NCBI GenBank assembly: GCA_937944395.1
Contig: CALDYW010000121.1
Location: 1-33,342, forward strand
Direction: 5' to 3'
From: an uncultured Paracoccaceae bacterium
Lineage (GTDB): Bacteria > Pseudomonadota > Alphaproteobacteria > Rhodobacterales > Rhodobacteraceae
DNA length: 33,342 bases
This document shows positions 4,131 through 20,124 of the stretch, piece by piece (position 1 is the first letter of the stretch; each line of letters starts with the position of its first letter). Below the pieces are notes generated by a model. That model ran no database searches, had not been told where the DNA came from, and was given only the letters and a program-made list of their open reading frames with translations. The position numbers and the translations under genes are program-made.

Positions 4131-6149
4131 CTACTCCGCGGCCCGGGCGAAGCGCCGGCCCGCCGCCGGCGCAAGGTCTCCGGCGAGGGCCGCGACCTCC
4201 TCGGGGCGGGTGCGGCGGCCGGCGGCGAGACGCGCGCCGATCGTCTCGACGAGCCGCCGGTAGAGCGCCTGCCGCGCGGCGAGCGGCAGGGGCGCCACCG
4301 CGGCATCGATCGCCGCGTAGAGCGCATCCGGCCAGTCGGCGTGATGGCGCGTGCGCGCGGGTCCGAAGTCGAAGGCGGGGGGCTCGGTCCAGCCGCGCGC
4401 GGCGCGGATCGCGGCGCGGGCGGCTGCGGTCGCGGCGGCGTCCGCGCCGCCGTCGGCATCGAGGATCACGCCGTAGACCTCGGCCGCGGTGGCCCGCGAC
4501 ACCAGCCCGTTCGCCACGTCCTCGGCCACTGTCGCAGCCGGGCGCTCGAGCGGATCGCCGAAGCCGCCGCCGCCCTGGGTGCCGATCCGCAGCACGTCGC
4601 CGGGGCCGAGTTCGAGCACATCGATCTTGCCGATGTCGCGCGCGGCCGGGGTGTCGGGATTGAGCAGCGTGTATCCCGTCGCCCCCGGCGCGCCGCCCAT
4701 CCGGCCCGGCGGCGGGAAAAGGTAGCGCTCCATCGCCCGGCTGGTGACGGTGGCATAGGGGGCGTCCACCTCGAACTCGATCTCGATCCCGCAGCCGCCG
4801 CGGAACCGCCCCGCCCCGCCGGAGTCGGGCCTGAGGCCGTAGGCGCGCACCAGCACCTCGGGCATCTCGTGCTCGAACACCTCGGTCGGCACGTTCTTGA
4901 GGAAGTTCAAGAGAACCATGGTGCCATCCACGCCGTCGTCCACCGGCCGGCCGCCCGAACCGCCGACGATCGGCTGGATCACCGACACCCGCGACCCGCC
5001 CCGGGCAAGGTCGGGCACGGCGATGAGCAGGATCGACCCCTGCCCCGAATCGGTCGCCGGGAACTCCATCGGCACCGCCTGGGCGAGCGCGCCGATCACC
5101 GCGTCGGTCACCTTGTGCGAGGTGGCATAGCGCACACCGCAGGCGGCGCCGGGCTCGGGGTTCAGGATCGTGCCGCGCGGCGCGATCACCTTCATCGGCC
5201 GCACGAGGCCGGCGTTGTAGGCCACGCCCGGATCCTGCGTGCAGATCCAGTTGACCAGCGCAGTGATCAGCATCCAGTGCCCGTCGCGCCCGAACGTGGG
5301 GAGGTTCAGCGCCGCGCGCACCTGCGGCGCGGTGCCGGTGAAGTCGAGCAGAAGCTCGCCCCCCTTCACCGTCACCGCGACCGCGACCCGGACCAGCCCC
5401 TGGCCGACCATGTCGGCCTCGAGGAAGTCGGAGAAGCGGTAGGTGCCTTCGGGCACCCGGCCGATCACCCGGCGCGCCTGCCCCTCGGCATAGGACAGAA
5501 GGTCGTCCATCGCCGTTGCGATGACGGGCGCGCCGAACCTTTCCAGCAGCTCGTGCACCCGCCGTTCGGCCAGATCGAGCGCGGCCAGGCAGGCCTTCAT
5601 GTCGCCCCAGTTCTGCTCGGGGGTGCGGGTGTTGACGAGGAACAGATCGAGCAGCTCGGCATCGAGCTTCCCGGCCCGATAGAGCCGCCGCGGCGGCACC
5701 CGGATCCCCTCCTGATGGATCTCGGTCGAGGACGGCGCGATCGAGCCCGACACCCGCCCGCCCACATCGGACATGTGGATGAAGGTCCAGGCCCAGCACA
5801 CCAGGCGGCCGGCGTGGAACACGGGCTTCCACAGGAACACGTCCGACAGATGCGTGACCATGCCGCCGGTCGCCTCGGGGTCGTTCGACAGGAACACGTC
5901 GCCTTCGGCCGGATCGGCGCTCAGCGCGATGGCCTGCGCCATCGGCATCCCGATCATCATCAGCACGCCGTAGCGGCGCGAGGCCGCGAAGACCTCGCCG
6001 CCCGGGGTGACGAGGACGGTGCCGTAGTCCTGCGTCTCCTTCACGAAAACCGTGTGCGCGGTGCGGAAGAGCACTTGCGCCATCTCGTCGGCGACCGCCT
6101 GGAAGCGGTTGGCGAGGATCTCGAGCGTGACCTTGTCCACCGCGCTCAC
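4131..6149 (-). CDS. Hydantoinase B/oxoprolinase family protein (HyuB-like)
   Basis: VSAVDKVTLEILANRFQAVADEMAQVLFRTAHTVFVKETQDYGTVLVTPGGEVFA...DVFLSNDPEATGGMVTHLSDVFLWKPVF; GTG start at 6149 overlaps the upstream HyuA stop (GTGA). Confidence 0.92.
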   Translation of the reverse strand: MSAVDKVTLEILANRFQAVADEMAQVLFRTAHTVFVKETQDYGTVLVTPGGEVFAASRRYGVLMMIGMPMAQAIALSADPAEGDVFLSNDPEATGGMVTHLSDVFLWKPVFHAGRLVCWAWTFIHMSDVGGRVSGSIAPSSTEIHQEGIRVPPRRLYRAGKLDAELLDLFLVNTRTPEQNWGDMKACLAALDLAERRVHELLERFGAPVIATAMDDLLSYAEGQARRVIGRVPEGTYRFSDFLEADMVGQGLVRVAVAVTVKGGELLLDFTGTAPQVRAALNLPTFGRDGHWMLITALVNWICTQDPGVAYNAGLVRPMKVIAPRGTILNPEPGAACGVRYATSHKVTDAVIGALAQAVPMEFPATDSGQGSILLIAVPDLARGGSRVSVIQPIVGGSGGRPVDDGVDGTMVLLNFLKNVPTEVFEHEMPEVLVRAYGLRPDSGGAGRFRGGCGIEIEFEVDAPYATVTSRAMERYLFPPPGRMGGAPGATGYTLLNPDTPAARDIGKIDVLELGPGDVLRIGTQGGGGFGDPLERPAATVAEDVANGLVSRATAAEVYGVILDADGGADAAATAAARAAIRAARGWTEPPAFDFGPARTRHHADWPDALYAAIDAAVAPLPLAARQALYRRLVETIGARLAAGRRTRPEEVAALAGDLAPAAGRRFARAAE

Positions 6150-8203
6150 AGCCGTTCCCCGATCAGGTTGGCGTGGTCGTCCACGGTCAGGCGGAAGCCC
6201 TCGGGCACCCAGGTCGTGGTGTCGTACTGCTGGACGATCAGGGGGCCGTAATGCGTTTCGCCGGGCACCAGCGCCTCGCGCCGGTGCACCGCCGCCTCGA
6301 CGAAGCGGCCCCGGTCGTGCACGCGGCGCAGGTGCGCACCGGCGGGCCGCGTCCCCGCCGGGTCCGAGCCGAAACGGATCGGCGGGCGGGGAAGCTCGCC
6401 CACGATCTGCACCCGTGCCTCGACGAGGCGCAGGGGCTTGCCGCGCTCGGCCCGGCCATAGACCCGGTCGTAGCGGTCGTGGAACCAGCCTGCGATGGCC
6501 TCGCGCGTCGGCGCCCCGGCCGGGAACGGCACGTTGAGCTCGAAGGACTGCCCGACATAGCACAGGTCGGCCGAGCGGATCAGGTGCACGGCGGCGAGCG
6601 TCACCCTCTCGGACTCCAGCCAGGCGCGCGCCTCGGCCTCGAGGCCGGCATAGAGCAGGGCAAGGGCGGCATCGTCGAGCGAGTCGAGCTCGGCCCAGAC
6701 CGTGCGCACGAAATCGGCGCGCAGGTCGGCCACGAGGCAGCCCAGCGCGCAGAGCGTGCCCGGTGTCGGGGGCACGATCACCCTGCGGAACGGAAGGTCG
6801 CGGGCCAGCAGGAAGCTGTGCGTCGGCCCCGCCGCGCCGTAGGCGACCAGCGCGCAGTCGCGCGCCTCGGCGCCGCGGCGGGCAAGCTGGGGCACAAGCC
6901 CCGAATAGATGTTCGCGGTCGCGATCGACAGGATCGCCTCGGCCGCCGCGTGCAGCGGCAGGCCCACCCGTTCCCCCACCGCCGCGACCGCCCGCGCGGC
7001 CGCCTCCGCATCCAGCCGCATCCTGCCGCCCAGGAACCCGTCGGGATCGACGATGCCCGAGACCACATAGGCATCGGTCACGGTGGCCTCGGTGCCGCCG
7101 CGGCCGTAGGCGGCGGGACCGGGCACCGACCCGGCCGAGCGCGGCCCGACCTTCAGCACGCCCGCCGCGTCGGTCCAGGCCAGCGACCCGCCCCCCGCCC
7201 CGATCGCCGAGACGTCGATCGCCGGCATGATCACCGGAAAGTCGCCCACGGTGTTCTCGGAGGAATAGGGGATCGCCTCGCCCACCACCGCGACATCGAC
7301 CGAGGTTCCCCCCATGTCGAGGGTGACCAGCATCCCCTCGCCGGCCTGCCGGCCGACATGGGCCGCGCCGATCACCCAGGCCGCCGGGCCGGAGAGCAGC
7401 GTCTCGACCGGCCGTGCCGCCGCCGCCTCGAGGCTCGTCACCCCGCCGTTCGACTTGGTCGAGAACACCCGCGCGGTCAGCCCGGCGACAGCGGTGCGCG
7501 CGCGCAGCGTGCCGAAGTAGCGCTTCATCCTTCCGCCGACATAGGCGTTCATCACCGTGATCAGGAAGCGTTCGTATTCCCGCTGCTGCGGCCAGATCTC
7601 GGACGAGGTGCAGACGTAGATCCCGGGATGGTCGGCGGCGATGGCGGCGCGCGCGGCCTGCTCGTGGGCGGGGTTGCGATAGGCGTGCAGGAAGCAGACC
7701 GCGATCGCGCGGATCCCCCGCGCCACCAGGTCCGCCGCCTCCGACCGCACCGCGCCAAGGTCGAGCGGCACCAACACCGTGCCGTCGGCCAGCACGCGCT
7801 CGTCCACCTCGCGCACGTTGCGCCGGGGCGTCAGCGCCACCGGCTTCGGCACAAAGAAGTCGTTGGCTTTCGGCAGCCGCAGGCGGCGCAGTTCCAGCAC
7901 GTCGCGGAAACCGCGGGTGGTGATCATCCCCACCGCCTCGCCCGTGCGCTCGAGCAGCGTGTTCACCGCGATGGTGGTGCCGTGCGAGAAGAAGCCGATG
8001 TCGGCGGGTTCGATCCCCTGCAGCCGGCGGAGTTCGGCCAGGCCCTCGAGGATGGCCTCTTCGGGCTCGGGCGTCGAGGGCACCTTGAGGGCATGCGCCC
8101 GGCCGGTCGCCTCGTCGAGGATGAGGAAATCGGTGAAGGTGCCGCCGATGTCCACGCCCAGCCGGAACGGACCGGACGCGCGCGGGGGACTGTCGAGACT
8201 CAT
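6146..8203 (-). CDS. Hydantoinase A/oxoprolinase family protein (HyuA-like)
   Basis: FRLGVDIGGTFTDFLILDEATGRAHALKVPSTP...LVTLDMGGTSVDVAVV...DVSAIGAGGGSLAWTDAAGVLKVGPRSAGSVPGPAAYGRGG; characteristic HyuA ATPase-fold motifs. Confidence 0.95.
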   Translation of the reverse strand: MSLDSPPRASGPFRLGVDIGGTFTDFLILDEATGRAHALKVPSTPEPEEAILEGLAELRRLQGIEPADIGFFSHGTTIAVNTLLERTGEAVGMITTRGFRDVLELRRLRLPKANDFFVPKPVALTPRRNVREVDERVLADGTVLVPLDLGAVRSEAADLVARGIRAIAVCFLHAYRNPAHEQAARAAIAADHPGIYVCTSSEIWPQQREYERFLITVMNAYVGGRMKRYFGTLRARTAVAGLTARVFSTKSNGGVTSLEAAAARPVETLLSGPAAWVIGAAHVGRQAGEGMLVTLDMGGTSVDVAVVGEAIPYSSENTVGDFPVIMPAIDVSAIGAGGGSLAWTDAAGVLKVGPRSAGSVPGPAAYGRGGTEATVTDAYVVSGIVDPDGFLGGRMRLDAEAAARAVAAVGERVGLPLHAAAEAILSIATANIYSGLVPQLARRGAEARDCALVAYGAAGPTHSFLLARDLPFRRVIVPPTPGTLCALGCLVADLRADFVRTVWAELDSLDDAALALLYAGLEAEARAWLESERVTLAAVHLIRSADLCYVGQSFELNVPFPAGAPTREAIAGWFHDRYDRVYGRAERGKPLRLVEARVQIVGELPRPPIRFGSDPAGTRPAGAHLRRVHDRGRFVEAAVHRREALVPGETHYGPLIVQQYDTTTWVPEGFRLTVDDHANLIGERL

Positions 8204-8219: not shown

Positions 8220-9215
8220 TCAGGACGGGTCGCGCGGACGGCGGCCGAGGAGCTGGTAGAGCCGGTGCTCGCGCCGCATCATCTCGTGGGCGTCGTTCTC
8301 GGCCATGACCTCGTCCACGGCCCGCAGGTTGGCCTGCTTCTGCGCCTTGAGCGCACGGTAGAACGACCCGTCCTTGATGTTGCTCAGCATCTTTCGCATG
8401 CCCTCGAGCGTCGCGTCGCGGTCGAAATACTGCTTCGACCAGACGAGATGCCCGAACTGCGCGGTCTGCGAGGCGCGCTTCATCCGCTCGAAGGCGCCGA
8501 GGTCGCGTCCGTATTCGGCCCATTTCACCCCCTCGCCCGAGGCGTAGAGGTCAAGCATCACCGCCTCGGGCGAGCATCCCGCCTCGACCAGGGCCTCGTA
8601 CATGGCGCGAAGGGCATAGAGTCCGGGCTGATGCTCCTCGAACAGGTCGATGATCGTCTCCTCCTCGAACGAGGACATCAGCACGCCCATCTTCGTCGAG
8701 CCGATCCCCTTGGCGATGCCGAGGCAGCGGGCGAGCGCGGTCCCGGTGGCGTCCTGGTGGACCGCGATCAGCGAGGGGAAACCGCGCCCCTCGAGGAAGG
8801 TGGCGCGCACCCCCTCGCCCAGCATCCGGGGCGCGACCATCACCACATCCACATCCGCCGGCGGCACGATCTCCTTGAAATGGATGTTGTATCCATGCGC
8901 GAAGGACAGCAGGTCGCCCGCCTTCAGCGAGGGCCGGATGGCCGTTTCGTAAACCTCGGGCTGGCTGTCGTCGGAAGTCAGGATCAGCTTGACCGGCGCC
9001 TGCGCCGCCGCCTCGGCGATCGGCAGCACCGTCCAGCCGTCGGCACGGGCGGTCTCGGCAAAGCCGTCCTCGATGTTGCCGACCACGACGTCCACACCGT
9101 TGTCCCTGAGGTTCAGGGCCTGGCTCCGGCCCTGGTTGCCGTATCCTAGGATCGCGACCCGGCCGCCCGAGATCGTCGCGAGGTCGGCGTCGGCGTCGAA
9201 GTAGAAGGTGCTCAT
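8220..9215 (-). CDS. Ketol-acid reductoisomerase-like protein (divergent IlvC paralogue; function uncertain)
   Basis: MSTFYFDADADLATISGGRVAILGYGNQGRSQALNLRDNGVDVVVG...SFAHGYNIHF...VDVVMVAPRMLGEGVRATF...IAVHQDATG...SFEEETIIDLFEEH. IlvC fold recognisable, several catalytic motifs altered. Start at 9215 chosen over 9239 because the latter overlaps a palindrome/promoter. Confidence 0.85.
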   Translation of the reverse strand: MSTFYFDADADLATISGGRVAILGYGNQGRSQALNLRDNGVDVVVGNIEDGFAETARADGWTVLPIAEAAAQAPVKLILTSDDSQPEVYETAIRPSLKAGDLLSFAHGYNIHFKEIVPPADVDVVMVAPRMLGEGVRATFLEGRGFPSLIAVHQDATGTALARCLGIAKGIGSTKMGVLMSSFEEETIIDLFEEHQPGLYALRAMYEALVEAGCSPEAVMLDLYASGEGVKWAEYGRDLGAFERMKRASQTAQFGHLVWSKQYFDRDATLEGMRKMLSNIKDGSFYRALKAQKQANLRAVDEVMAENDAHEMMRREHRLYQLLGRRPRDPS

Positions 9216-9230
9216 GCGTCGGGAACCCGG

Positions 9231-9259
9231 TTGTTTCATAATCTGAAAGTCCGTATCAT
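9231..9259 (+). promoter_or_regulatory. Candidate sigma70-type promoter TTGTTT-N17-TATCAT with an embedded 15-bp dyad TTTCA-N5-TGAAA
   Basis: -35-like ttgttt 9231-9236, 17-nt spacer, -10-like tatcat 9254-9259, dyad 9234-9248, in the divergent intergenic region between the IlvC-like gene and the sarcosine-oxidase-like gene. Confidence 0.5.
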
Positions 9260-9315: not shown

Positions 9316-10470
9316 ATGCGCGAGGGGTTCGAGGCGATCGTGCTGGGGCTCGGGGGGCTCGGAAGCGCCGCGGCCTGGCGGCTGGCGGTCCGCCTCGGCG
9401 GGCGGGTGCTGGGACTTGAGCAGTTCGCCCTCGGGCATCGGCGCGGCGAGTCGGGCGACCGGTCGCGGATCATCCGGCTGACCTACCACACCCCGGGCTA
9501 TGTGCGGCTGGCACGGGCCGCCTACGCCGCCTGGGCCGAGGTCGAGGCGGCGGCCGGGGCGCGGCTTGTCCACCGCACCGGCGGGCTCGACATCTTCCCG
9601 GCCGACAGCCCGCTGCGGCCCGAGCCCTACGTCGCCGCGATGACGGCCTGCGACGTCGCCTTCGAGCGCCTCGACGCCGCCGGGGCGATGCGGCGCTTCC
9701 CGCAGTTCCGCCTGCCGGAGGATGCCTGCGCGCTCTGGCAGCCCGACGGTGGCCTGGTGACGGCCGAGCACGCCACGGCAGCGCACCAGCGCCTGGCCCG
9801 CGCCGCCGGCGCGACGCTGATCGACCGGATGCCGGTGACCGGCCTCGCGCGGCGGGACGACCTCTGGCAGGTCGCCACGGCGGCCGGAACCTTCCGCGCG
9901 CCCCGGCTCGTCGTGGCGGCGGGTCCATGGACGAACCGGGTGCTGGGCTGGCTGGGGCTGTCGCTGAAGCTTGCCGTGGTGCGCGAGCAGGTGGCGCATC
10001 ACCGCGCCGACCCGGCCGAGGCCTTCGCCCCCGGCCGGTTCCCGGTGTGGATCTGGATGATCCCGGCCAACTTCTACGGCTTTCCGGCGATGGCCGGCCC
10101 GGGCGTCAAGGTCGCCAAGGACCGCTTCGCCCCGACCGACCCCGACCGCGCCGAGCCCGACACGGACGCCGCCCATGCCGCAGGCGTGGCCGGTTTCCTC
10201 GCCCGCCACATCCCCGGCGCCGCCGGCCCGGTGCTCGAGGCGCGCACCTGCGTGCAGACGCTGACCCCCGACGACGACTTCGTGCTCGACCACCTGCCGG
10301 AGACGGCGGGGACGGCTGCGGTCGCGGTTGGTGCCGGGCATGCCTACAAGTTCGCCGCCCTGATCGGCGCGATCCTTGCCGACCTTGTGCTCGATGGCGG
10401 AAGCCCTCTCGACCTCGCGCCGTTCCGGTTCGACCGGCCCGGCCTGGATGCCAGATGTTCCACTTGTTGA
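9316..10470 (+). CDS. Monomeric sarcosine oxidase/N-methyl-L-tryptophan oxidase-like FAD enzyme
   Basis: EAIVLGLGGLGSAAAWRLAVRLGGRVLGLEQFALGHRRGESGDRSRIIRLTYHTPGYVRLARAAY...LEARTCVQTLTPDDDFVLDHLPE; the Cys in TCVQTLTPD matches the position of the covalent-FAD Cys of MSOX/MTOX. Confidence 0.88.
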   Translation: MREGFEAIVLGLGGLGSAAAWRLAVRLGGRVLGLEQFALGHRRGESGDRSRIIRLTYHTPGYVRLARAAYAAWAEVEAAAGARLVHRTGGLDIFPADSPLRPEPYVAAMTACDVAFERLDAAGAMRRFPQFRLPEDACALWQPDGGLVTAEHATAAHQRLARAAGATLIDRMPVTGLARRDDLWQVATAAGTFRAPRLVVAAGPWTNRVLGWLGLSLKLAVVREQVAHHRADPAEAFAPGRFPVWIWMIPANFYGFPAMAGPGVKVAKDRFAPTDPDRAEPDTDAAHAAGVAGFLARHIPGAAGPVLEARTCVQTLTPDDDFVLDHLPETAGTAAVAVGAGHAYKFAALIGAILADLVLDGGSPLDLAPFRFDRPGLDARCSTC

Positions 10471-15007: not shown

Positions 15008-16027
15008 CGCCGCCGCTGGCCGAGGTCCGGGGCCTTGCGGTTCGCTACGGCGGCGGGCGGTTCGGGCGCGCGGGGTTCCTGGCCGTCAGCGGGGTGGATC
15101 TCGAGGTCGGCCGGGGCGAGACCCTCGCGCTGGTCGGCGAATCGGGCTCGGGGAAGTCGAGCGTCCTGCGCGCGCTGGCCGGGCTGCTGCCGGTTGCCGC
15201 CGGCCGGCTGGTCTTCGAGGGACAGGACATCACCGCGACCCTCGGGCGCCGCCCCGCGCGGCTCAGGCGCGAGATGCAGGTCGTGTTCCAGAACCCGGAC
15301 GGTTCGCTCAACCCCCGCCACGAGATCGCAACCATCCTCGGCCGCCCGCTGGCCGCCTTCCACGGCCTTCGCGGCGCGCGCGCGCGACCGCGCGGCCGAG
15401 CTTCTGGCAACGGTGCGGCTCGATCCGGGCTACCTCGGCCGCCGGCCGGGCGAGCTGTCGGGCGGCGAACGCCAGCGCGTGGCCATCGCGCGGGCGCTGG
15501 CCGCCGAGCCGCGGCTGATCCTCTGCGACGAGGTGCTGTCGGCGCTCGACGTCTCGGTGCAGGCGGCGATCGTGGCGCTCCTGCGCGAGCTGCAGGCGTC
15601 GCGGGCGCTCGCCTATCTCTTCATCTCGCACGATCTTGCAACCGTGCGCTGGCTTGCGCACCGGGTGGGGGTGCTCTACCGCGGCGAGATCTGCGAGACC
15701 GGCCCGGCGGCGGCGCTGTTCGCGCCGCCGTTCCACCCCTACACCGAGATGCTGCTGGCGGCGGTTCCGCGGATCGGAGGTCGGGCCGGCACCCTGCCGG
15801 CCGGCACGGCCGCAGCCGCGCCCGCCGCGGGCGGCGTGGTGGCACGGGGCTGCCCTTTCGCCGCACGCTGCCCCCGCCGCATCGGCCCGGTCTGCGACCA
15901 CGAGGCGCCCCCCCTCAGGTCCGCCGGCCCCGGCCATGCCATCCGCTGTCACATCCCGCCGCCCGAGCTGGCCCGCGCGCAGGCGGCGCCGGCGGCCGGC
16001 CAGTCCGAAGGAGCTGCCGTTCCATGA
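15004..16027 (+). pseudogene. ABC transporter ATP-binding protein (DppF-like), split by an apparent frameshift in a GC-dinucleotide run near 15374-15386
   Basis: 5' part (frame of 15004): MTPPLAEVRGLAVRYGGG...ALVGESGSGKSSVLRALAGLL...MQVVFQNPDGSLNPRHEIATILGRPLAAFHGLRGARA. 3' part (frame of ORF 15035..16027): RDRAAELLATVRLDPGYLGRRPGELSGGERQRVAIARALAAEPRLILCDEVLSALD...RGCPFAARCPRRIG. Walker A and signature/Walker B lie in different frames. Confidence 0.85.
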
Positions 16028-17226
16028 CAAAGTCCCGCCCGCGCCGGCTGACGACCTCGGCGCGCATCGACCTGGCCGCCGTCGTCGGGATGCCGCCCTA
16101 CGCGCGCACCGCGATCGGAACCAAGAAGGGCTGGCGGCACACCGCCTTCCACCCTGTCACCGCGCCGCGGGCCCGGGAATGGAAGCTGCACAACGGCTAT
16201 CTCAAGCCCAACCGCTTCACCGACCCGGTCGAGGAATACTGGGCGATGCGCCGCTGCGCCGGGCTCTGGGACGTGACCGGCGAGGAGGTGATCGAGATCT
16301 CAGGCCCCGAAGCGCTGGCGGTGATGGACGAACTCGTGCCGCGCGACCTTGGCCGGCTGGCCGACGGGATGAGCCTTTACTGCGTGCTCTGCTACGACCA
16401 TGGCGGAATCGTCGAGGACGGGATCCTGGTGCGCTTCTCGGCGGACCGGCTGTGGTGGGTCGGCGGCCCGGCGCCGGCCGAGGAGTGGATCTATGCCCAT
16501 TCCCGGGGGCGCGCGGTGACGGTGCGGAGCTTCCACGAGGAGATCCATGTGGCGAGCTTGCAAGGCCCCGCCTCCCGCCGCCTGCTTGACCCGCTGGCCG
16601 GAGGGGCGGTGGCGGCCCTGCCCTTCTTCGGCGCCGTCGAGACGCGCCTGTGCGGCGTGCCGGTCACCATCACCCGCACCGGCTACACCGCCGAACTCGG
16701 CTACGACATCTATGTGTCCGTTGCCGAGGGGGCGGGCCTGTTCGCCGCCCTCTGGGAGGCGCTCGAACCGCAGGGGGTGGCGCTCTGCGGCAGCCGCGCG
16801 CTCGACCTGCGGCGCACCGAGGCGTCGATCCTGAACATCGGCCAGGAGTTCGACTTCCGCGTGACCCCGCTCGAGATCGGGCTCGACCGCATGATCAACT
16901 GGCACAAGCGCCCGTTCCGCGGCCGCGCGGCGCTGGCGCGCCAGAAGGCTGAAGGGGTGCGCCGCCGCCTGGTCGGGCTGCGGCTTGCCGACGACCGTGT
17001 GGCGGTGCCGGGCGAGGCGGTCGTGCAGGACGGCCGCAAGGTCGGCGAGGTCACCACCGGAAACTGGTCGCCCGCGCTCGATGCCAGCATCGCGATCGCC
17101 ATGGTCGCGGCGGGGGCGGACGCGCCCGGCACGCGGCTCGAGATCGCGATGGAGGAGGCGCCGGCGGCGGCGCGGGTGGTGCCGATGCCCTTCCTCGACC
17201 CGGAACGGAGGCTGTCGAAGGCATGA
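16024..17226 (+). CDS. GcvT-like aminomethyltransferase/THF-dependent demethylase family protein
   Basis: HNGYLKPNRFTDPVEEYWAMRRCAGLWDVTGEEVIEISGPEALAVMDELVPRDL...CYDHGGIVEDGILVRFSADRLWWVGG...TRTGYTAELGYDIYV...GSRALDLRRTEASI; GcvT domain architecture. Confidence 0.88.
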   Translation: MTKSRPRRLTTSARIDLAAVVGMPPYARTAIGTKKGWRHTAFHPVTAPRAREWKLHNGYLKPNRFTDPVEEYWAMRRCAGLWDVTGEEVIEISGPEALAVMDELVPRDLGRLADGMSLYCVLCYDHGGIVEDGILVRFSADRLWWVGGPAPAEEWIYAHSRGRAVTVRSFHEEIHVASLQGPASRRLLDPLAGGAVAALPFFGAVETRLCGVPVTITRTGYTAELGYDIYVSVAEGAGLFAALWEALEPQGVALCGSRALDLRRTEASILNIGQEFDFRVTPLEIGLDRMINWHKRPFRGRAALARQKAEGVRRRLVGLRLADDRVAVPGEAVVQDGRKVGEVTTGNWSPALDASIAIAMVAAGADAPGTRLEIAMEEAPAAARVVPMPFLDPERRLSKA

Positions 17227-17993
17227 GCGGGCGTTTCATGGACAAGGTGGCGCTGATCGTGGGCGGCGCCGAGGGCATGGGCGGGGCCACGTCCGAGCGC
17301 CTCGCGGCCGAAGGCGCGCGGGTCTGGGTGATCGACCGCGCGGGCGACGCCGCCGAGGCGCGCGCGGCGTCGATCCGCGAGGCCGGGGGCCACGCGCGGG
17401 CCGTCGCGGCGGATGCCACCGACGAGGCGGCGATGGCGGCGGCGGTCGCGGCGGCGGTCGCCGCCGAGGGGCGGATCGACGTTCTGGTGGCGATCGCCGG
17501 CGGCAGCCGCGCCGGCCGGGTGGCCGACCTTCCGGCCTCCGAGTGGGACCGGCTCTACCGGCTGAACGTCACCGCCACCGCCACCGCCTGCCGGCTGGTG
17601 TTGCCGGCGATGCGCGCCGCCGGCGGCGGCGCCATCGTCACCATGTCGTCGATCTCGGGCCTGCGCGGCGACCCCGGCTGGGGCGCCTACAACGCCGCCA
17701 AGGCCGCGGTCATCAGCCTGACGCAGACGCTTGCCTGGGAAGAAGGGCGCCACGGCATCCGCGTCAACGCGGTCTGCCCGGGGCCGATCGCCTCGGCGCG
17801 GATGCTCGCCTCGCTCGACGATCCGGGCTTCGCCGCCCGCTACGACGCGGCCTGCGCGATCGGCCGCATGGGACGGCCCGAGGAGGTCGCGGCGGCGATC
17901 GCGTTCCTGGCCTCGGACGAGGCGGGCTTCGTCAGCGGCGCGCATCTGGTGGTGGACGGCGGGCTGACGGCCCGCACCGGCCAGCCGGTCTGA
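17223..17993 (+). CDS. SDR-family NAD(P)-dependent oxidoreductase
   Basis: VALIVGGAEGMGGATSERLAAEGARVWVIDR...MSSISGLRGDPGWGAYNAAKAAVISLTQTLAWEEGRHGIRVNAVCPGPI...FVSGAHLVVDGG; YxxxK and C-terminal VDGG motifs. Confidence 0.95.
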   Translation: MSGRFMDKVALIVGGAEGMGGATSERLAAEGARVWVIDRAGDAAEARAASIREAGGHARAVAADATDEAAMAAAVAAAVAAEGRIDVLVAIAGGSRAGRVADLPASEWDRLYRLNVTATATACRLVLPAMRAAGGGAIVTMSSISGLRGDPGWGAYNAAKAAVISLTQTLAWEEGRHGIRVNAVCPGPIASARMLASLDDPGFAARYDAACAIGRMGRPEEVAAAIAFLASDEAGFVSGAHLVVDGGLTARTGQPV

Positions 17994-18119: not shown

Positions 18120-18938
18120 ATGGAGACCACCGTCGTCAAGGGCCTGAAGGTGATCGAGGCGCTCGCCGCCGGCGGCGGGCAGTCGAGCCTTTCGGATATC
18201 GCCCGCAGCTGCGCGATGACCAAGTCGAACGCGCATCGCCTGCTCAAGACGCTCGAGGACTGCGGCTGGGTCCGCCGCGACCCCGCGACCCGCGGCTATG
18301 CGCTGACGCTCCGGCTGTGGTCGCTCGGCGCGCGCGCGCTGCACGGCATGGACCTGCGCGCGGTCGCCGCCCCGCATCTGCGCCGCCTCGCCGAGGCCAC
18401 CGGCGAGTCGGTCCACCTCTCGGTGCTCGAGAACGGCGAGGCCGTCTACATCGACCGCGCCGAGAGCGCCGAGATCGTGCGCGCCTATATCCGCGTGGGC
18501 GACCGCGCGCCGGCCTGGGCGGTGGCGACGGGTCGGGCCATGCTGGCCTTCGCGCCCGAGCCCGAGATCGCCGCCGCGCTGGCGCGCCTCGAGGCCTTCA
18601 CCCCGAACACCCCCGCCGATCCCGCGGCGCTCCGGCGGAAGCTGGCCGAGACCGCCCGGACCGGCATCGCGATGACCTTCGGCGAGTGGAAAGCCGGCGT
18701 CATCGGCATCGCCGCCCCGGTGATGGGCCCCGACCGCAGGCCGGTCGCCGGGGTCGGGATCGCGGGGCCCGAGGCACGGATGCAGCGCGCCGACCGCGAG
18801 GCCCAGATCGCCGCCGTGCGGAGCTGCGCCGAGGCGATCGCCCGCGACCTCGGGCTCCTGCCCGCGGCCGCAGCGCCCGCCGACCCCGACGGCGACCCGC
18901 AGTCCGACCGTCCAGCAGGGGAACGCCGCCATGGATAG
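18120..18938 (+). CDS. IclR-family transcriptional regulator
   Basis: KGLKVIEALAAGGGQSSLSDIARSCAMTKSNAHRLLKTLEDCGWVRRDPATRGYALTLRLWSLGARAL (wHTH), then the IclR effector domain ...GESVHLSVLENGEAVYIDRAES...VATGRAMLAFAPE. Confidence 0.95.
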   Translation: METTVVKGLKVIEALAAGGGQSSLSDIARSCAMTKSNAHRLLKTLEDCGWVRRDPATRGYALTLRLWSLGARALHGMDLRAVAAPHLRRLAEATGESVHLSVLENGEAVYIDRAESAEIVRAYIRVGDRAPAWAVATGRAMLAFAPEPEIAAALARLEAFTPNTPADPAALRRKLAETARTGIAMTFGEWKAGVIGIAAPVMGPDRRPVAGVGIAGPEARMQRADREAQIAAVRSCAEAIARDLGLLPAAAAPADPDGDPQSDRPAGERRHG

Positions 18939-20124
18939 ACGCAACGCCCCGCCCGGCTTCGCGACGCGGGCGATCCATCTGGGCTACGATCCGGCCACCG
19001 CCGAAGGCGCGCTGACGCCACCGATCTACATGACCTCGACCTACGCCTTCGAAAGCGCCGAGGCGGGCGGCGAGATGTTCGCGGGACAGCGCGCGGGTTA
19101 TGTGTACGGCCGCACGAAGAACCCGACCCAGACGCTGCTCGAGGCGCGGATGGCCAGCCTCGAGGGTGCCGAGGCGGCGCTCGCGCTGGCCTCGGGGATG
19201 GGGGCGATCGCCGCAACCGCCTGGTCGCTGCTCGCCGCGGGCGACCGGGTGGTGATCGACCGGACGCTCTACGGCTCGACCTATGCCTTCTTCACCCAGG
19301 GCCTCGTGCGCTATGGCGTCGAGGTCGCGGTGGCCGACCTGACCGACCCGGAGGCAACCGCCGAGGCGCTCCGCCCCGGAACCCGGATGGTCTATTTCGA
19401 GACCCCGGCAAACCCGAACCTGCGGGTGATCGACATCGCCGCGGTCGCGGCCGCCGCCCGCGCCGGGGGCGCCGCGGTGGTGGTGGACAACACCTTCGCC
19501 ACGCCGGCCCTGCAGCGCCCGCTCGAGCACGGCGCCGACCTCGTGCTGCATTCTGCGACGAAGTATCTGGGCGGGCACGGCGATCTTCTGGGCGGGATCG
19601 TTGCCGGCCGGGCCGAGACGATCGCCCGCATCCGCGGCACCGGCCTGCGGTGGATGACCGGCGCCACCCTGTCGCCGCTCAATGCCTTCCTGATCCTGCG
19701 CGGCCTCAAGACGCTCGAGCTCAGGATGGAGCGGCACTGCGCCGCCGCGACCCGGCTTGCCGCGCTGCTGGCCGGGCATCCCGCGGTGGCGCGCGTGGCC
19801 TACCCGGGTCTGGCCGAAGGCGCGGCGGCCGATGTCGTCCGGCGGCAGATGGCCGGGCACGGGGGACTTGTGGCCTGCGAACTGCGCGGAGGGATGGCGG
19901 CAGGGCTCAGGGTGATGAACGCGCTCCGGCTCGTCACCCGGGCGGTCAGCCTCGGCGATGCCGAAACGCTGGTGCAGCACCCCGCCAGCATGACCCATGC
20001 CGCCTATCCGCCCGAGGAGCGCGCCCGCCACGGCATCACCGACGGGCTGATCCGCTTCTCGGTCGGGCTGGAGACGGTCGAGGACATCCTCGCCGATGTG
20101 ACGCGGGCGCTGGACGCCGCGTAA
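18931..20124 (+). CDS. Cys/Met metabolism PLP-dependent enzyme (methionine gamma-lyase/cystathionine gamma-synthase family)
   Basis: GFATRAIHLGYDP...GYVYGRTKNPTQTLLEARMASLEGAEAALALASGMGAIAATAWSLLAAGDRVVIDRTLYGSTYAFF...VVVDNTFATPALQRPLEHGADLVLHSATKYLGGHGDLLGG; PLP Lys in SATKYLGGH. Confidence 0.95.
   Translation: MDRRNAPPGFATRAIHLGYDPATAEGALTPPIYMTSTYAFESAEAGGEMFAGQRAGYVYGRTKNPTQTLLEARMASLEGAEAALALASGMGAIAATAWSLLAAGDRVVIDRTLYGSTYAFFTQGLVRYGVEVAVADLTDPEATAEALRPGTRMVYFETPANPNLRVIDIAAVAAAARAGGAAVVVDNTFATPALQRPLEHGADLVLHSATKYLGGHGDLLGGIVAGRAETIARIRGTGLRWMTGATLSPLNAFLILRGLKTLELRMERHCAAATRLAALLAGHPAVARVAYPGLAEGAAADVVRRQMAGHGGLVACELRGGMAAGLRVMNALRLVTRAVSLGDAETLVQHPASMTHAAYPPEERARHGITDGLIRFSVGLETVEDILADVTRALDAA

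Follow-up and report, generated by a model that had tools for sequence, protein, structure and literature searches.

The window, a stretch of 33,342 nucleotides from an uncultured Paracoccaceae bacterium, encodes on its minus strand a ketol-acid reductoisomerase (KARI)-like oxidoreductase followed by HyuA and HyuB (Table 1). The longest reading of the KARI-like frame covers 8220..9239 and specifies 339 amino acids. An internal in-frame ATG at 9215, which was adopted in the preliminary description, gives a protein of 331 amino acids and probably is the true start because its first residues, MSTFYFD, coincide with the N-terminus of most relatives in alignments. The protein contains the N-terminal Rossmann domain KARI_N (Pfam PF07991; 2.1e-58, 197 bits versus a cut-off of 20.6) and the C-terminal knotted domain KARI_C (Pfam PF01450; 2.3e-16, 60.9 bits versus a cut-off of 29.1). 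KARIs were the top PDB matches, all of them, in a structure-based fold search. The window protein has the fold of class I KARIs. The AlphaFold monomer displayed a pLDDT of 82.7 overall and values <50 at residues 236-258, which lie at and after the second metal helix; the active site of KARIs is built between subunits, and the monomer is therefore a poor guide to the metal site.

Table 1. Positions of the genes and motifs in the window that are discussed in the text.
Feature	Coordinates	Strand	Basis
KARI-like oxidoreductase	8220..9215	minus	ORF; both Pfam KARI domains; 15 homologues (69-80% identical); dN/dS far <1
Rossmann motif GYGNQG	9129..9146	minus	Sequence; conserved in alignment
β2-αB cofactor loop NIEDGF, with acidic residues in place of the LRxGSxS phosphate binders	9060..9077	minus	Alignment; PMC5940873
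HGYNIHF, catalytic-His segment, kept	8877..8897	minus	Alignment
APRMLGEGVR (canonical APKGPGHxVR; Lys to Arg)	8805..8834	minus	Alignment; common to Sso-KARI and other APRM-group KARIs
First metal helix ETIIDLFEE, equivalents of E186/D190/E194 kept	8634..8660	minus	Alignment
Second metal helix DLYASGE, with E226D, a two-residue insertion and E230 kept	8532..8552	minus	Alignment
Ser equivalent to S251, kept	8469..8471	minus	Alignment
HyuA, which follows the KARI-like stop codon after 16 bp	6146..8203	minus	Pfam Hydantoinase_A/Hydant_A_N; PDB relatives; orthologue identity
HyuB, start approximate, overlaps the end of HyuA	4131..6170	minus	Pfam Hydantoinase_B (3e-148); PDB N-methylhydantoinase
FAD amine oxidase, divergent, N-methyl-L-tryptophan-oxidase/sarcosine-oxidase type	9316..10470	plus	NCBIfam PRK11259, 308.6 bits > cut-off 257; pathway membership inferred
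GcvT-type folate-dependent aminomethyltransferase	16024..17226	plus	Many related loci have a homologue adjacent to the cassette
SDR dehydrogenase	17223..17993	plus	SDR genes are frequent neighbours
IclR-type regulator	18120..18938	plus	IclR gene adjoins the cassette in several related loci
Methionine gamma-lyase-type PLP enzyme	18931..20124	plus	TIGR01328, 556.9 bits > cut-off 549.7; directly upstream of KARI in L023

The best PDB relatives of HyuA are N-methylhydantoinase and 5-oxoprolinase. The domains present in HyuA and HyuB and the adjacency of their genes place the pair in the ATP-dependent HyuAB hydrolase family. Both proteins match N-methylhydantoinase, 5-oxoprolinase and caprolactamase over their full lengths, and both score below every NCBIfam equivalog cut-off listed. 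On related contigs that reach sufficiently far, HyuA lies immediately downstream of the KARI-like gene in 14 of 14 cases and HyuB follows in 13 of 13, a contiguous and co-oriented arrangement that bears out the HyuAB linkage raised in the preliminary description. The HyuA of the cassette forms its own orthologue group, with 60-64% identity to the HyuA of the window compared to ≤41% for intact paralogues from the same genomes. Genome G070 (L069 7305-9915, G070:C5) is without the KARI-like gene, and its flanking Ald2, TauD and GMC genes are retained around copies of HyuA and HyuB that are split over several frames. This pattern is suggestive of co-loss of the KARI-like gene and HyuAB, bearing in mind that frame breaks in metagenome-assembled genomes (MAGs) can be sequencing errors. 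The open literature contained nothing relevant that we could find on a link between KARI and a hydantoinase or an oxoprolinase, and no description of a KARI-HyuAB module.

Fifteen close relatives (69-80% identity) were recovered among 84,980 species genomes scanned with exact peptide seeds, a procedure by which distant members may be missed. The data are mostly MAGs, and all 15 relatives reside in MAGs that are alphaproteobacterial or are given only as bacterial. A scan of 385 class genomes with the APRM pattern revealed the clade gene in three other genomes, all from one family; matches from another four genomes proved not to be KARIs. In a maximum-likelihood tree, which is unrooted and includes some long branches, the window protein and its relatives (16/16 sequences) were monophyletic with support of 100/100 and so constitute the separate HyuAB-linked clade for which the preliminary description had proposed a phylogenetic check. 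Canonical KARIs split from the APRM group at 100/99 in the same tree. The 'putative ketol-acid reductoisomerase 2' of Saccharolobus solfataricus (Sso-KARI; PDB 6jcv, 6jd2), which is the top PDB sequence match to the window protein (224 bits), branched with the APRM/YASGE group at 96/83. The window protein has the APRM motif, the two-residue insertion and a common branch with Sso-KARI, and belongs to a non-housekeeping branch of the class I KARI fold, namely the HyuAB-linked clade of the APRM/YASGE type. Values for dN/dS of ~0.02-0.38 across six sequence pairs reveal that the KARI-like gene is under purifying selection.

All carriers of the clade gene for which the genome could be checked also possess another KARI. 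The bin to which the window belongs (71.5% complete) includes the first 109 amino acids of a canonical IlvC, with 59% identity to IlvC of Tistrella, at the edge of another contig. In family f34, the clade gene is present in 14 of 16 genomes and a further KARI is found in every one of the 14. Ten of these additional loci were read: nine have intact copies directly beside ilvB-ilvN and the tenth is frame-broken in both ilvB and ilvC. Frame-broken canonical ilvB and ilvC genes were noted at L067 (4782-8214, G432:C14), on a contig that carries an intact cassette, probably as the result of an assembly error. In the near-complete genome G297 the clade gene and the other KARI are located on one contig and a binning error therefore does not explain their coexistence. 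No ilvBN genes were found next to the cassette. The preliminary description had remarked on the non-ilvBN context, had recommended a search for a second ilvC, and had viewed the absence of any other ilvC, combined with proof of KARI activity or rescue of an ilvC mutant, as grounds for abandoning its interpretation; instead, another KARI is present and, in the intact loci read, it is this copy that has ilvBN alongside. The assertion that the window protein is not the housekeeping IlvC thus is backed by the phylogeny, by the conserved HyuAB linkage and by the second, canonical ilvC. The argument for repurposing derives from this genomic context, and the KARI-like gene very probably is a spare copy that was recruited for what would be the breakdown of some nitrogen compound.

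Catalytic and metal-binding positions were compared in a gapped alignment of the 16 clade members, six related sequences and 24 canonical KARIs using P. aeruginosa-type numbering. The motifs GYGNQG, HGYNIHF, FEEETIIDLFEE, APRMLGEGVR and LDLYASGEGVKWAEYGRDLG that were cited in the preliminary description each occur in the window protein. The equivalents of H107, E186, D190, E194, E230 and S251 are invariant in 16/16 clade members. The sole differences among the positions compared are K130R, which is fixed in the clade (16/16) with Lys in 24/24 canonical KARIs, and E226D, which also is present in 16/16 clade members, as the reported replacement of Glu by Asp implied, and is fixed in the HyuAB-linked clade only. 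In contrast, the supposed loss of the second metal-binding Glu was rejected: E230 is retained by all clade members, and was overlooked in a simple alignment as an artefact of two extra residues (FECLHE to LDLYASGE). Metal-ligand roles in class I KARIs have been assigned to D191/E195 and D191/E227/E231 in Sac-KARI (PMC5940873). Judging from these alignments, the clade is predicted to retain a dimetal (Mg2+) site in which a single Glu has become Asp. K130R and E226D are candidate causes of altered chemistry. The alteration of two catalytic positions might also denote a degenerate, non-catalytic KARI remnant, but this is very improbable in view of the purifying selection, the fixation of both changes throughout the clade and the invariance of the other ligands.

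Canonical class I IlvC proteins (such as 4tsk and the ilvBNC-linked copies of the carrier genomes) resemble the window protein in fold, in the Rossmann motif, in the catalytic His and in D190/E194/E230/S251. They are 35-41% identical to it and differ in that the window protein has the K130R and E226D replacements, the two-residue insertion, a shorter segment after the first metal helix, an NADH-type loop and a HyuAB rather than an ilvBN context. Sso-KARI shares with the window protein APRM.GEG, the YASGE two-residue insertion, the FEEE...D...E metal helix and the lack of an RxxSxS loop, whereas it keeps E226, which is Asp in the window clade, and has Ser at the position of the catalytic His (FASGYN compared to FAHGYN). 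The Sso-KARI structure was solved as a dodecamer and the PDB entries include complexes with Mg2+. According to a 2019 JACS report, the enzyme reportedly is active, is bispecific for NADH and NADPH, and binds two Mg2+ ions. As an enzyme with Mg2+ structures possesses both APRM and YASGE, the motif differences alone do not prove that KARI chemistry has been lost. The motif-based case against a KARI is the weaker part of the preliminary description: the changes are real, but do not amount to a dismantling of the dimetal site.

The same motifs in an enzyme reported as a KARI leave scope for activity on acetolactate. The window protein accordingly might be a true ketol-acid reductoisomerase in an accessory role, akin to Sso-KARI, that still acts on acetolactate or acetohydroxybutyrate, with the adjacency of HyuAB reflecting a side step of branched-chain amino acid type. 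Sso-KARI has been cited as a KARI (PMC8615647), the window protein exceeds the cut-off of the NCBIfam ilvC model TIGR00465 (246.5 versus 226.2), and its dimetal site is nearly conserved. However, the protein falls below the cut-offs of two further IlvC equivalogs, PRK05479 and PRK13403, which canonical controls pass along with TIGR00465. Moreover, all checkable carrier genomes have another KARI, which is beside ilvBN where the locus was read, the cassette is devoid of adjacent ilvBN, and the Glu to Asp change is confined to the HyuAB clade in which it is fixed. A genuine KARI of this type thus is unlikely, and we infer instead that the protein acts on a substrate other than acetolactate.

The β2-αB loop in the clade reads NIED, NIDD or NRDD and lacks the Arg/Ser phosphate ligands, whereas canonical copies mostly have LRxGSxS. 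Acidic residues in this loop mark NADH-preferring KARIs (PMC5940873). As the residues that contact the phosphate of NADPH are swapped for acidic ones, the clade enzyme is predicted to prefer NADH over NADPH. BurG is a KARI-family enzyme that is NAD+-dependent, employs two Mg2+ ions, was repurposed alongside a normal ilvC, and acts on a 2,3-dihydroxy acid with no net oxidation (PMC9359912). The protein (PDB 7pcc and others) functions in natural-product biosynthesis, which is a different pathway, is ~35% identical to the window protein, and provides a precedent only. The NADH-type loop, the catabolic context and the BurG example are compatible with a KARI reaction that is run oxidatively as a catabolic step, by an oxidoisomerase or an NAD+-dependent 2,3-dihydroxy-acid dehydrogenase. 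This special case of the oxidoreductase function that is favored below is rather unlikely, as BurG itself performs no net oxidation.

Frequent additional neighbours in the relatives are genes for an SDR dehydrogenase, a GcvT-type aminomethyltransferase, a PhyH dioxygenase and an IclR regulator. MFS, TauD/GBBH-type, class II aldolase and LeuB-type genes are found farther out, with ectoine-hydrolase-like genes in some loci. The window and the related locus L023 both contain GcvT, SDR, IclR and methionine gamma-lyase-type genes, which in L023 run into KARI-HyuA; the window additionally has an N-methyl amino acid oxidase-type gene and an Opp-type transporter. The gene context points to catabolism of a nitrogen heterocycle or an N-methyl compound, and the assignment of a pathway is weak because the neighbours beyond HyuAB differ between loci. 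The combination of HyuAB and the FAD amine oxidase, which suggests nitrogen heterocycle or N-methyl amine chemistry, also would suit a pyrroline-carboxylate-like imine reductase that makes or removes a cyclic amino acid handled by HyuAB as a lactam. Canonical KARIs accept several oxo acids for reduction, and P5C as well: Streptomyces KARIs weakly reduce this cyclic imine and complement proC (PMC4353338). Nevertheless, an imine reductase is highly unlikely as the reduction of P5C by KARI is very low and imine reduction needs no conserved dimetal site.

The explanation that we consider probable is that the window protein is an NAD(H)- and Mg-dependent KARI-fold oxidoreductase of 2-oxo/2-hydroxy acids that operates with HyuAB in the catabolism of a nitrogen compound, probably an N-methylated one. 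Two Mg2+ ions would hold the head of a 2-oxo/2-hydroxy acid, possibly a 2,3-dihydroxy or ketol acid, and hydride would pass between the alpha carbon of the substrate and NAD(H), a transfer known from BurG and from the reductase step of KARIs (PMC9359912). HyuA-HyuB would be the partner of the KARI-like enzyme as an ATP-dependent, ring-opening hydrolase of lactam, hydantoin or 5-oxoproline type, within a pathway that would be both regulated and catabolic.

KARI usually is viewed as a one-reaction family that is a target for antibacterials and herbicides, and its annotation relies solely on homology. The conservation of KARI-HyuA-HyuB as a module in genomes that also have a normal ilvC suggests a second role that is labelled IlvC by current models (TIGR00465), and automatic annotation of the clade gene in valine/isoleucine biosynthesis would be misleading. 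Sso-KARI and the rest of the wider APRM branch may have to be re-examined for their assumed biosynthetic role. A broader proposal, which we offer tentatively and hold to be somewhat doubtful, is that a new catabolic function has arisen on the KARI scaffold, in which an NAD-dependent oxidoisomerase/dehydrogenase and its own HyuAB form an undescribed module, and that the wider APRM/YASGE branch of archaea and bacteria is largely catabolic and misannotated as IlvC. KARI-HyuA-HyuB is a small, directly testable three-gene system in which a new catabolic reaction might be found.

Specific pathways also were considered. No support was found for a homarine pathway. DoeA-like and DoeB-like ectoine catabolism genes lie by the cassette region in several loci only (L028 3436-6069), are under the curated cut-offs, and were treated as a neighbouring island rather than as evidence of an ectoine pathway. 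A pathway of the creatinine/N-methylpyrrolidone type suits HyuAB and the FAD amine oxidase but leaves the KARI-like protein without a role. A ThDP enzyme that surpasses the cut-off for 5-guanidino-2-oxopentanoate decarboxylase is encoded within a few kb of the cassette in L033 (367-2100) and L035 (5590-7674), and an arginase-family gene is present in L030.

Plasmid-borne APRM-type KARIs of Sulfitobacter dubius and Haladaptatus/Halomarina resemble the window protein in the APRM motif and a YASGE-like insertion, but have no HyuAB neighbours, retain E226 and are 39-47% identical to it. These Sulfitobacter and haloarchaeal genes (L039 10004-10987, L041 7992-8987 and L042 7974-9002) are annotated as ilvC and are situated in catabolic-looking clusters with either TRAP transporter, ALDH and glycerate kinase genes or mandelate racemase-type dehydratases. 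An APRM-type relative in Eleftheria terrae (L046 6995-8047) is located in an apparent natural-product cluster between thioester-reductase-domain and FkbH-domain proteins.
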